64,000 nt of DNA from assembly GCF_002895945.1 (NCBI RefSeq), contig NZ_NPZB01000002.1, positions 62,001 through 126,000 on the forward strand. Reading direction: 5' to 3'. The translations under genes and the position numbers were made by a program. Shown in pieces: positions 60,512-64,000 of this stretch. The DNA comes from Solilutibacter silvestris (GTDB lineage Bacteria; Pseudomonadota; Gammaproteobacteria; Xanthomonadales; Xanthomonadaceae). The notes below the pieces were generated by a model that had not been told where the DNA came from, made no database searches, and was given only the letters and a program-made list of their open reading frames with translations. Each line of letters starts with the position of its first letter. Within the stretch, counting starts at the first letter, position 1.

Positions 60512-61810
60512 ATGCCCGTCACAGATTCTCAGCGCGTCCACCAGGGGGAATGGCCGGCGATGGCGCTGTCCTTCCTGTATTTCTTCTGCGTGCTGGCTGC
60601 CTACTACGTGATCCGGCCAGTGCGCGAGCAACTGGCTTCCGCAGTCGGGTCGACCCAGTTGCCATGGTTCTACGCGGCCACCTTTGCGGCCATGCTGGTG
60701 CTGGCGCCGATCTTCGGCGCGGTGGTGTCGCGCTGGCCGCGGCGCATCGTGGTGCCGATGCTCAACATCGTCTTCATCATCTGCCTGCTGGGATTCATCC
60801 CGTTCTTCGCCCATTCGGGATTGCTGTCACCGCGCGCGCTCGGCATCGCCTTCTTCGTCTGGGTCAGCGTCTTCAATCTGTTCGTGGTCTCGGTGTTCTG
60901 GATTTTCATGACCGATATCTGGACGGTTGAACAGGCGCGCAGGCTGTTTCCACTGATCGCGTTGGCAGGCACGCTGGGTGCGATCGCCGGCCCGGCGCTC
61001 ACGCAATCGCTGGTCACGGTGATCGGCGTCGCGCCGTTGCTGGCGGTGTCGGCGGGATTGCTGGCCATCGCGGTGGGATGCGTGATCGCACTCGGGCGCT
61101 GGGCGCGCGTCCATGGCGAGAAGCGCCACGATCCCGACCACGAAGCTGCGGTTGGCGGCAGCATGTGGGATGGGCTGAAGCAGATCTTCGCGACGCCGTT
61201 CATGCGCGCGATGGCGATCCTGTTGCTGCTCGCCGATGGCATCGGCACGGTCAACTACGCCCTGGTGACCGATTACTCGCACGTGACCTTCCTCGATCCG
61301 GTGGCGCGCACCGCGTTCCATGCGCGGATCGATCAGATCGGCAACATCCTTACCGCGCTGACGCAACTGCTGGTGACGCGTTGGCTGCTGCCACGCAAGG
61401 GGCCGGGCGTGGTGATCCTGGTCTGGGCATTGGTCAGCGCCGCCATGCTGGTGCTGGTGGTGTTCACCCCCGATCCGCACGCGCCGATGCTGGCGGGATT
61501 GCCGGTGGTCGCGTTGGCATTGATCGTCAGTCGCGGCCTGGCATATGGCATGTCCGAACCCGCCCGGCATGCGCTGTTCGCCTCGGTGCCGCGTGCGCTG
61601 CGCTACAAGGGACAGAGTGCGGTCGACACCGCAGTCTGGCGCTTTGGCGACATGGCGATCGCCACCGGCATGAATTTGCTGCGCGGGATCGGTGCGACAG
61701 TGGGCGTGTTCGCCGCACTCAGCACGATCAGCGCGTTGCTGGCCGGCTGGATCGGCTGGCATACAGCCAATAAGGCGCAGGATGCACGCGATGCAAGATC
61801 AGCCGACTGA
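60512..61810 (+). CDS. MFS-type transporter, NTP/NDP-exchanger-like
   Basis: A 432-residue protein with about 12 membrane segments. MALSFLYFFCVLAAYYVIRPVREQLASAVG and the loops RWPRRIVVPMLN and WTVEQARRLFPLIALAGTLGAIAGPALT are of the kind annotated in Xanthomonadaceae as ATP/ADP-translocase-like. True NTP/NDP exchangers belong to intracellular bacteria and plastids, so a real nucleotide exchange function is doubtful here. It overlaps the downstream phosphoesterase gene by 20 bases. Confidence 0.78.
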   Translation: MPVTDSQRVHQGEWPAMALSFLYFFCVLAAYYVIRPVREQLASAVGSTQLPWFYAATFAAMLVLAPIFGAVVSRWPRRIVVPMLNIVFIICLLGFIPFFAHSGLLSPRALGIAFFVWVSVFNLFVVSVFWIFMTDIWTVEQARRLFPLIALAGTLGAIAGPALTQSLVTVIGVAPLLAVSAGLLAIAVGCVIALGRWARVHGEKRHDPDHEAAVGGSMWDGLKQIFATPFMRAMAILLLLADGIGTVNYALVTDYSHVTFLDPVARTAFHARIDQIGNILTALTQLLVTRWLLPRKGPGVVILVWALVSAAMLVLVVFTPDPHAPMLAGLPVVALALIVSRGLAYGMSEPARHALFASVPRALRYKGQSAVDTAVWRFGDMAIATGMNLLRGIGATVGVFAALSTISALLAGWIGWHTANKAQDARDARSAD

Positions 61811-62726
61811 ACCGCAAGGCAGGGAAAGCGATACGCCGCACGATTCGGCAGCCACGCTGCGTCGGCGCAGGCGTCAACGCCGGAAGTGGGAGCGCGTGCT
61901 GTTGGTGGTCGTGGCGTTCCTCGTCGCCTGCGGCCTGTATGCATGGCTATGGGAGCCGCGCCAGCTGATTGAGCGCGATTACACGTTGCACCTGGCGAAC
62001 TGGCCGGCGCAGTGCGATGGCCTGCGCATCGACCAGGTCACCGATCTCCACACCGGTTCGTGGATGAACGGCATCGACAATGTCGATCGCGTCGTTGCGA
62101 AACTCGCCGCCAGTGATTCCGACGTCGTGGTGTTCACCGGCGACTACGTGATCCTCAGCGTGGTGCTGGGCAAATACGTCGATCCCGCGACCATCGCCAA
62201 TCATCTCGCGCCATTGACGCAGAAGAAGCAGGTCTATGCCGTGCTCGGCAACCATGACTGGTGGGACGGCGGTCCGCGCGTGGCGGCCGAGTTCGAGCGT
62301 GTCGGCATCCAGGTGCTGGAAAACGAATCGACGCGCGTTGGCGTGCGCGATTGTGGCTTCAACCTGGTCGGCGTGGATGATCTCACCGCCGGCAAGCCGC
62401 AGCCGCTGGCGGCTTACGCGCGGATCGATCCCGGCCTGCCGACGATCGCGCTGGAGCACGAGCCCGAGATGTTCCTGAAGTTCCCGGAATCGACCGCGCT
62501 GGTCCTGGCGGGACACACGCATGGTGGCCAGGTGAATCCGTTTGGCTTGCGCACGCCGTCGACGTTCCGCGCCAAGTCCGCGGCGTTGAGCGGCGAATAC
62601 CATGTCGGTGAGCGCACGCTGTTCGTGTCACCCGGCATCGGCACCAGTTGGTTGCCGTTGCGGATGGGGCGTTATCCGGAAATTTCGCGGTTGACATTGC
62701 GTGGGCGCGAAAAGGGCGCGCAGTAA
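61791..62726 (+). CDS. Membrane-anchored metallophosphoesterase, YaeI-like
   Basis: A 311-residue phosphoesterase with one N-terminal membrane segment (RKWERVLLVVVAFLVACGLYAWL), so it acts on the periplasmic face. Metal motifs: TDLHTGSW, FTGDYV, LGNHDWWDGG, and AGHTHGGQ. YaeI-type enzymes hydrolyse phosphodiesters and lipid intermediates. ATG 61791 is favoured over 61782. It starts inside the transporter gene, indicating coupling. Confidence 0.9.
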   Translation: MQDQPTEPQGRESDTPHDSAATLRRRRRQRRKWERVLLVVVAFLVACGLYAWLWEPRQLIERDYTLHLANWPAQCDGLRIDQVTDLHTGSWMNGIDNVDRVVAKLAASDSDVVVFTGDYVILSVVLGKYVDPATIANHLAPLTQKKQVYAVLGNHDWWDGGPRVAAEFERVGIQVLENESTRVGVRDCGFNLVGVDDLTAGKPQPLAAYARIDPGLPTIALEHEPEMFLKFPESTALVLAGHTHGGQVNPFGLRTPSTFRAKSAALSGEYHVGERTLFVSPGIGTSWLPLRMGRYPEISRLTLRGREKGAQ

Positions 62727-62792
62727 CAGGCGCACGTCGTTCCGAACCACGCGCTGGCTGGCGTGTGTGACCAGCTCCAATGCACGACACGC

Positions 62793-62997
62793 CGTGAATA
62801 CGTCCATGTAGGCTCGTACGTGCCATCCATGGCACGTCACGGTCGTGCATCGGACTGGCGCACCCACTTGCCGCGCGCGTGTTGTTGCTTTTCAGAGACT
62901 TGAAAGCCACCACCGGCGGCGTCAGCGCGGTTCGTCCGTATGGCCGACCATTCCGCCGCATGGATGCGGCGGCTGAGCCTACATGGACGTATTCACG
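62793..62997. repeat. Pair of inverted REP-like elements with covarying hairpins
   Basis: A perfect 23-bp inverted repeat has arms at 62793-62815 and 62975-62997. Two bases inside each arm lies a 20-base hairpin: ACGTGCCAT-CC-ATGGCACGT (62818-62837) next to the left arm, and CCGCCGCAT-GG-ATGCGGCGG (62953-62972) next to the right. Both hairpins keep the CAT-CC-ATG core on the repeat's own strand while the stem bases differ and compensate. The 0.1 kb between them has no gene. With 62727-62792 this accounts for the whole gap before fadE; I see nothing else in it. Confidence 0.8.
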
Positions 62998-63044
62998 GTC
63001 GCGGTCATATGGACAACCGACGCAGGCGCACAGCCGGGCGATAA

Positions 63045-64000
63045 CTACGCCACCGCGCGCGACGACCGCTGCTCGTGTGCGACGAGATCGCGATACCCGG
63101 CCGAACGCAGTTCCTCCGGATCGAAGTCGTCAACCATGATGGTGTCGAGCGTCATCGTCCGCAGCTCGCGCAACTGATCGGCTTCCTCGGCAGTGATCCA
63201 GCCTTCGCGCACGCCTTCGACGAGTTGATCCTCGAACTCCAGCGCTTCGATCTCGTGGCTCTTCAGCGCCTTCAGGAACTTGCGTTCCACCGGCTCGGCC
63301 ATCACGAACTTCGGCAGGTAACTGATGATGCGGCCCGCCGGATTGTTCTCGCCCGGCGTGGTGAAGATGCCTTCGGCCAGGCGATCGCGCGCGTCGGATG
63401 GCGTCATCAGCAGGCTCGCCACCTTGTGGCCGAGACGATCGCTCGGTGCCTGCGCACGGCGCCCCCACGGGAAGATGATCGGCCACAGCAGCCACGCCAC
63501 CGGGCGCACTGGGAAGTTGCGCAACGCGCCCGACAGCGCGGTCTCGATCTTGTTCACCGCATCGTGGAAGGCCCAGGCCAGCAACGGCTGGTCGCTGTCC
63601 GGGCGGCCTTCGTCCTCATAGCGTTTCAACATGCTGCTGGCGATGTAGAGCTGGCTCAGCACATCGCCAAGGCGACCGGACAGGGACTCCTTGAACTTCA
63701 ACTTGCCGCCGAGCATCAGCATCGAGATGTCGGCCATCACCGCCAGATTGGCGGAATAGCGATTCATCTTGCGGTAGTAGCGACGCGTGTAATCGTCGCC
63801 CGGGGCGCGCCCGAAGCGCGACCACGTCAACCCGAACCACAGGCTGCGAACGGCATTCGAAATCGCCGCGCCGATGTGGCCGAACAGTGCGCTGTCGAAC
63901 GCGTCGATGCGTTCACCGGCATCGGGGATCTGGGTCGCCTTCATTTCCTTCATCACCCATGGATGGCACAGGATCGCGCCTTGTCCGAAGATCATCAGCG
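63045..64000 (-). CDS. fadE: Acyl-CoA dehydrogenase FadE, C-terminal part
   Basis: Open to the right edge, so only the C-terminal ~318 residues are present. The sequence matches the C-terminal domain of the large FadE-type dehydrogenases (DUF1974 region): LMIFGQGAILCHPWVMKEM, MADISMLMLGGKLKFKESLSGRLGDVLSQLYIASSMLKRY, FPVRPVAWLLWPIIFPWGRR, and the end GEGWITAEEADQLRELR-like helix. FadE oxidises acyl-CoA in the first step of beta-oxidation at the inner membrane. The catalytic flavin domain lies outside the window. Leftward, with the REP-like pair just downstream. Confidence 0.9.
   Translation of the reverse strand, partial: LMIFGQGAILCHPWVMKEMKATQIPDAGERIDAFDSALFGHIGAAISNAVRSLWFGLTWSRFGRAPGDDYTRRYYRKMNRYSANLAVMADISMLMLGGKLKFKESLSGRLGDVLSQLYIASSMLKRYEDEGRPDSDQPLLAWAFHDAVNKIETALSGALRNFPVRPVAWLLWPIIFPWGRRAQAPSDRLGHKVASLLMTPSDARDRLAEGIFTTPGENNPAGRIISYLPKFVMAEPVERKFLKALKSHEIEALEFEDQLVEGVREGWITAEEADQLRELRTMTLDTIMVDDFDPEELRSAGYRDLVAHEQRSSRAVA

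Follow-up and report, generated by a model that had tools for sequence, protein, structure and literature searches.

The two convergent units that lie between a phosphoesterase gene and a fadE-like gene of Solilutibacter silvestris belong to a dispersed structured repeat of the Ysr224 type, which is found across the Gammaproteobacteria in scattered, patchily distributed copies at gene 3′ ends. The repeat is real, ordered and class-wide, and is partly known already as Ysr224. Its units keep a folded shape while their sequence drifts. As far as tested, it is REP-like in habit and is not a RAYT REP. We tentatively propose, with somewhat less than even confidence, that the repeat is best explained as a 3′-end RNA element carrying a putative CsrA-type double site.

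The element between two convergent genes

The window, by which we mean the whole stretch of 64,000 nucleotides analysed, contains one such composite element (Table 1), which takes up most of the space separating two convergent genes. A preliminary description had reported here a perfect 23-bp inverted repeat framing two hairpins, each unit consisting of a head, two bases and a 9-2-9 hairpin. This layout is present on both sides. The head CGTGAATACGTCCATGTAGGCTC (62793–62815) is perfectly complementary to 62975–62997, with pair 62792/62998 adding one more, and the CAT-CC-ATG core occurs in each hairpin (62818–62837 and 62953–62972) on its own strand. The feature is larger than this inverted repeat, spanning approximately 62748–63042, with outer arms beyond the heads that pair with sequence inside. 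The heads are parts of two units of about 100 nt, in which an outer stem, P1, encloses the hairpins P2 (within the head) and P3. The arms of the left unit pair around its head and 9-2-9 hairpin, and the right unit follows the same plan on the opposite strand. The element had been placed before fadE; in fact, the fadE-like gene is on the minus strand and ends at 63045–63047, so gene 3′ ends face the element from both sides. Searching the window with 15 bases of the head gave two exact matches, which are the two heads, and two three-mismatch matches elsewhere, at chance level.

Table 1. Positions in the window of the composite element, its parts and the adjoining genes.
Feature	Position	Strand	Basis
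Whole composite element, two convergent units and spacer	62748..63042	.	Limits by eye, where homology between genome copies ends
Left unit, outer stem P1, 5′ arm	62763..62788	+	Inverted repeat I2 with 62842–62867; P1 covariation
Left conserved head, including mini-hairpin P2 (GAA TAC [GTCCAT] GTA GG CTC, 62796–62815)	62793..62815	+	Sequence, genome search, P2 pairing and covariation
CATGGACG, candidate CsrA/Rsm-type site CANGGANG, P2 loop, left unit	62801..62808	-	Sequence; motif from excerpts of PMC6849547 and PMC7652899
Left hairpin P3 (the 9-2-9 hairpin of the preliminary description)	62818..62837	+	Sequence, covariation
CATGGATG, second candidate CANGGANG site, P3 loop, left unit	62824..62831	-	Sequence; loop survey
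Left unit, outer stem P1, 3′ arm	62842..62867	+	Inverted repeat I2
Spacer between units, variable in length among genome copies	62868..62927	.	Alignment of 15 genome copies
Right unit, spacer-side arm of P1 (GGA strand of this unit)	62928..62948	+	Sequence and fold
Right hairpin P3	62953..62972	-	Sequence, covariation, fold
CATGGATG, candidate site within right P3	62959..62966	+	
Right conserved head with P2	62975..62997	-	Sequence, genome search, covariation
CATGGACG, candidate site within right head	62982..62989	+	
Right unit, outer P1 arm	62998..63020	+	Sequence and fold
Upstream gene, calcineurin-like phosphoesterase (PF00149), stop TAA 62724–62726	61692..62726	+	
Downstream gene, bacterial acyl-CoA dehydrogenase C-terminal domain (PF09317, ACDH_C; fadE-like), stop 63045–63047	63045..63995	-	

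Copies, relatives and folded shape

The preliminary description expected a genome search for the head to return many copies, mostly in inverted pairs. The 22-base core has 52 copies with at most three mismatches in the 2.85-Mb genome (28 on the plus and 24 on the minus strand, ten exact). The reversed-pattern control returned none, so these copies are not due to chance. There are two main head types, ATAC..GTAG and ATCC..GGAG. Among the 33 places analysed, convergent pairs account for 17, single units for 15 and a tandem pair for one; inverted pairs are thus frequent. A further convergent pair (L218) was removed from this analysis by a duplicate filter, having a stretch in common with L021; its second head, a GTGAACCC variant, is not among the 52, and its two P3 hairpins are alike. 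Each of 15 aligned pairs combines one unit with an AGCCGC-type P3 and a partner with a different P3. Differing P3 hairpins within a pair are a tendency and not a rule, L218 being the exception.

Genes around the copies were called by ORF length, with GC3 added for the convergence counts and the stricter orientation counts, and not by annotation. They could be resolved at 28 of the 33 places (the other five gave no resolvable genes), of which 21 lie between convergent genes, five between co-directional and two between divergent ones. Control gaps in the same loci are convergent in 2 of 18 cases, against these 21 of 28 (Fisher p 5e-5). The intergenic regions that flank the copies in this genome are mosaics of repeats. 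For example, a second dispersed motif resembling GTCATCCCGAGCGCAGTGAGGGATC and a solo palindrome resembling CACGCGCTGGCTGGCGTG recur next to copies (L001, L002, L012 and L025, among others). At four loci (L007, L017, L020, L022), copies have an extra palindromic stretch of roughly 80 nt at the P3 apex, like another repeat inserted in the loop.

Beyond this genome, exact 22-base matches occur in Methylotuvimicrobium, Marinobacter, Stenotrophomonas, Lysobacter, Arenimonas, Rheinheimera, Aquisalimonas and others, among the matches listed (80 of at least 119 stretches). Within the genus, one pattern finds 51 heads in this genome (G000), 52 in a congener (G079) and none in three others. Heads are present in 26 of 149 genomes of the family sample and in 13 of 369 of the class sample, with up to 315 copies in one genome (G395). 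In the phylum sample they occur in 11 of 398 genomes, all 11 Gammaproteobacteria, with 261 of the sampled genomes belonging to other classes (counted by eye). Records of S. maltophilia also contain heads, and two Arenimonas loci in the family (L034 of G103 and L050 of A. terrae) have identical sequence around both heads. An exact match labelled Rhodospirillales comes from a metagenome bin and may be misbinned. A contig in a bin labelled Klebsiella pneumoniae (L052, CAMDWI010000036.1), for which misbinning is possible, carries four heads in 8 kb. One Ysr224-like query found no match in 5,426 E. coli genomes. ERIC is a palindromic intergenic repeat of similar size, part of whose sequence starts GTGAATCC; ERIC-like matches are present in E. 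coli genomes, but the Ysr224-like query had none there.

The closest named relative is Yersinia sRNA 224 (Ysr224, Rfam RF02770), whose consensus has the same core, ACGCCGUaAAuaCauCCaUGUAgGCuCG, followed by a hairpin with a CCaUCCcuGG apex. Its model scores 26.0 and 24.9 bits on the two window units and 40.8 at best elsewhere, which does not reach the gathering score of 70. These sub-threshold alignments, most of them end to end, include both window units as well as units of other genera. Ysr224 is a named sRNA modelled along the UCC strand with a different fold, unlike the GGA-strand plan described here. In excerpts of the Ysr224 literature, transcripts are reported for several copies in Y. 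ruckeri (PMC12112432), and Ysr224 is listed among abundant, temperature-responsive sRNAs (PMC9029176); these excerpts of the two papers make no link to CsrA and do not describe a mobile repeat. No title on the element appeared among the listings for CsrA with REP, loop or sponge terms, and the printed motif strings led, among the matches listed, to seemingly unrelated papers, which is no proof that the element is undescribed.

The preliminary description had also claimed covarying stems behind a conserved head, and a broader alignment bears this out. We collected 235 units by their head, and 185 of these have a P3 TCC loop (the 50 without one were dropped, as was one of the 185 that contains N). 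Covariation was assessed on 65 aligned cluster representatives, in which conservation of the head and P2 is partly built in, since units were gathered by their head. The usual unit consists of P1 (free in sequence), a core ACGCCGTGAATACGTCCATGTAGGCTC, P3 (again free in sequence) and a closing arm, and some copies are broken or chimeric. RNAalifold predicts 30 pairs, 27 of them with compensatory changes. In the named 35-pair structure, 81.0% of cells are paired, against 56.2% in shuffles and 36.6–47.0% when the structure is slid. Two-sided changes affect 32 of the 35 pairs (shuffles 29.6) and 641 cells (shuffles 244.3), and the covariation score is 0.594 against 0.184. In P2, TAC/GTA pairs switch to TCC/GGA and CCC/GGG.

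Mismatches in the stems indicate which strand folds. On the GGA strand, P1 has 42 G-U against 10 A-C appositions in the 41 well-formed units, 105 against 67 in all 65, and 58.0 against 9.7 when averaged by cluster. Over P1 and P3 together, the 41 units have 46 G-U and 15 A-C where column make-up predicts 128 to 115; of the individual units, 21 have more G-U, 6 have more A-C and 14 have equal numbers (p 0.006). P3 alone has no strand bias (4 G-U, 5 A-C in the 41 units), and P2 includes a G-U in 65 of 65 units but is fixed by the search. The strand asymmetry of P1 mismatches is compatible with folding of either RNA or single-stranded DNA.

Candidate CsrA sites at 3′ ends

Read on the GGA strand, CANGGANG (C-A-N-G-G-A-N-G) stands in the P2 loop of every representative and in the P3 loop of most. 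The distance from GGA to GGA is 18–21 nt in 65 of 65 representatives and exactly 20 nt in 47. A P3 search that made no demand on the loop found 157 hairpins, of which 153 have a loop with TCC, the reverse complement of GGA, with 77 of 234 units having no detectable P3. Among the 27 one-mismatch copies listed from outside the family (class sample, with the mismatch free to fall anywhere and a capped number of copies listed per genome), 22 have their mismatch at one or other of the two Ns in CANGGANG, as judged by eye.

This octamer is the core of the published Rsm site, A/U-CANGGANG-U/A, as given in an excerpt of PMC6849547. Excerpts of a second source (PMC7652899) report RUACARGGAUGU as the SELEX consensus for CsrA, mostly in six-base loops, and state that CsrA bridges two sites 10–63 nt apart, with the optimum given as >18. 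The left P2 site, ACATGGACGT, matches the longer SELEX motif fully, and the observed spacing falls within the bridging range in all 65 representatives. Placement of CANGGANG in a hairpin loop, preferably of six bases, is supported by alignment and covariation and not by minimum-energy folds. We infer that the unit would act as a folded RNA at mRNA 3′ ends, where its GGA strand would display two CANGGANG loops that one CsrA/RsmA dimer could bridge. With the units in an inverted pair, transcripts of either flanking gene would contain one GGA unit. The likeliest roles would be 3′-end protection or termination, together with CsrA docking or titration. CsrB/RsmZ-type RNAs are single sRNA genes with many sites. 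Like the units predicted here, they hold GGA in hairpin loops with sites spaced for dual binding, according to excerpts of PMC7652899; unlike them, the present element is a dispersed repeat with two putative sites per unit, as judged from sequence.

Several observations count against the CsrA reading. In minimum-energy folds of the GGA strand, the P2 GGA is unpaired in only 15 of 65 units and the P3 GGA in 56; the corresponding counts for an open UCC on the UCC strand are 36 of 65 in P2 and 63 in P3. For 45 of the 65 units, the more stable computed fold is that of the GGA strand. SELEX ligands had mostly four or fewer contiguous pairs, as stated in an excerpt of PMC7652899, which makes their stems shorter than P3. 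The UCC-strand folds and these short SELEX stems have lowered our confidence in what is still the best explanation. The Ysr224 consensus, which follows the UCC strand, is to be listed on the same side. Further, CsrA does not account for AGC and TTCAC. Orientation is also unhelpful: single units between co-directional genes (n=51, crude gene calls, after setting aside 45 units that fell within predicted ORFs and 25 at edges) are read as the UCC strand in 28 cases and as the GGA strand in 23, and stricter gene calls give 7 UCC and 9 GGA. This lack of bias is an objection, which the inverted pair softens and does not remove. The presence of CsrA itself proved uninformative as a discriminator, as it occurs with or without the repeat. 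There is one CsrA match in this genome, CsrA is present in 29 of 29 family genomes checked (including the three element-free congeners) and in 313 of 369 class genomes, and a match is absent from two of the 13 head-bearing class genomes, G342 (98% complete) and G488 (85% complete).

A possible though rather doubtful alternative is a plain bidirectional 3′-end element, in which a REP/BIME-like stem would terminate transcription or protect the 3′ ends of mRNAs, with loops conserved for a reason unrelated to CsrA. The preference for convergent genes in this genome is what such an element would produce, and it recurs more weakly at other GC-rich loci (11 of 35 resolved places against 6 of 51, p 0.03, with 33 more places lacking resolvable genes). 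The absence of orientation bias suits it equally. So does the fadE locus in congeners, compared by eye: the same 3′ end carries unrelated hairpins in the three element-free congeners, one of which (G130) is a classic A-tract/T-tract terminator, and a single unit in G079, where P3 is changed by compensating differences. However, the T-tract terminator pattern that we looked for in the element was not found, and a plain stem leaves unexplained why two loops with the same CANGGANG are kept at a fixed distance, class-wide, despite the drift of their stems.

Mobility and wider meaning

The other live rival of the CsrA-type reading, which we consider unlikely, is a selfish mobile repeat. Some enzyme would recognise its GGA strand as folded single-stranded DNA, and shape and loops would be kept for transposition and not for the host. 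Its patchy spread through the family and class samples, and the contrast between two copy-rich Solilutibacter genomes and three congeners with none, would fit such a history. So would the differing content of the fadE locus among congeners, and the finding that one strand folds, yet shows no preference relative to genes. Against this, no associated transposase was found. There was no match in 72,556 plasmids with two queries and no exact match in IMG/VR viral contigs with two patterns. A coding gene of one jumbo phage (two records) contains a match of 26 out of 28 bases, which we took as chance. For comparison with MITEs, the outer ends of the element could be placed approximately, and no empty site was clean enough to show a target-site duplication. 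We also considered that an autonomous form might carry a gene flanked by two units, and did not adopt this idea, as there is a single case with a spacing of about 1 kb. In that case (L107, 5670–6800, Paraperlucidibaca), two units about 1.1 kb apart surround an ORF of 294 aa with a DUF4357 domain, a GIY-YIG-like N-terminus by eye and no transposase match. Seven further long spacings between units are listed, L137 among them.

The preliminary description read the element as a classic REP or REPIN moved by a RAYT, with a RAYT gene flanked by copies to be expected in the genome. The first half of this reading stands: the repeat is dispersed, intergenic, multi-copy and often in inverted pairs, has a REP-like layout and contains GTAG within the head. 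Mobilisation by a RAYT is very improbable. PF01797 does match in 21 of 26 head-bearing genomes, including this one, where the only match is a decayed Y1 fragment of IS200/IS605 type (C2:13595–13859; L031, L032) that lies outside the window and has no heads around it. The curated RAYT model NF047646 has no match in G000, G079 or G082, despite 52 heads in G079 and 72 in G082. We read about 1.5 kb on each side of 57 RAYT/Y1 loci (47 distinct genes), a sample of the search matches in head-bearing genomes. None has a head with at most three mismatches in that range, and none is flanked on both sides. Relaxing to four mismatches gave one-sided hits more than 1 kb from the gene at two of the 57 loci, of which that at L225 is chance-like. 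The other, at L234 in the genome with 315 heads, resembles a real but decayed unit about 1.4 kb away and counts in favour of a RAYT. None of the 14 RAYT loci in the genomes of L069, L061, L075 and L116 lies near a head, and the RAYTs at L223 (G395) and L224 (G230) are accompanied by other repeats. For the loci examined, we reject the link to RAYTs on the grounds that no head with at most three mismatches lies near a RAYT gene.

The inverted repeats that adjoin the L223 and L224 genes (CCCGTATGAAGCGTAG... and GGTAGGGTGCGCATTGCGCACC) are unlike the present element, which these genomes also carry.

GTAG/CGTC REPs and TIR families were described by Di Nocera et al. 2013 (PMC3733652). According to excerpts of that paper, GTAG-REPs are, like the present element, dispersed intergenic palindromes, often in inverted dimers with the tag outside, with covarying stems and a preference for gene 3′ ends. 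They differ in having an unpaired tag next to the palindrome. Here, GTAG is a paired strand of P2 that covaries with its partner, to GGAG and GGGG, and is therefore not such a tag, and GCTC and about two further bases precede P3. Their palindromes measure 20–40 bp, whereas the unit here is about 100 nt with two hairpins inside an enclosing P1, and they go with RAYTs, of which we found no association here. The TIR families of TIRYT genes, as outlined in excerpts of the same paper, are self-complementary repeats near each other in S. maltophilia, a species that also has heads. Compared by description, the element may overlap or be identical with one of these families.

Template switching within quasi-palindromes would make long, nearly perfect arms, as many of these are, but the idea that covariation is its by-product, arising when one arm is copied to replace the other and without any selection on the fold, is highly improbable, as it predicts neither a G-U bias on one strand nor conserved loops.

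These results join a multi-copy "sRNA" of Yersinia with REP-like repeats of Xanthomonadaceae, Marinobacter and Methylotuvimicrobium, around a core that is conserved but is not the recognition tag of a RAYT. Rfam hits to Ysr224 may mark a repeat family and not one sRNA gene. Returning to the 3′-end RNA element with two putative CsrA sites, we think it conceivable, although on balance doubtful, that a mobile class-wide repeat carries a ready-made, predicted CsrA/RsmA hairpin pair to gene 3′ ends, and that in copy-rich genomes the resulting tens to hundreds of dispersed putative sites would rewire or buffer the Csr network. If the loops do not bind CsrA, it becomes a sharp question why both hairpins conserve one octamer throughout the class. 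If they do, dispersed repeats would become part of a global regulatory network.
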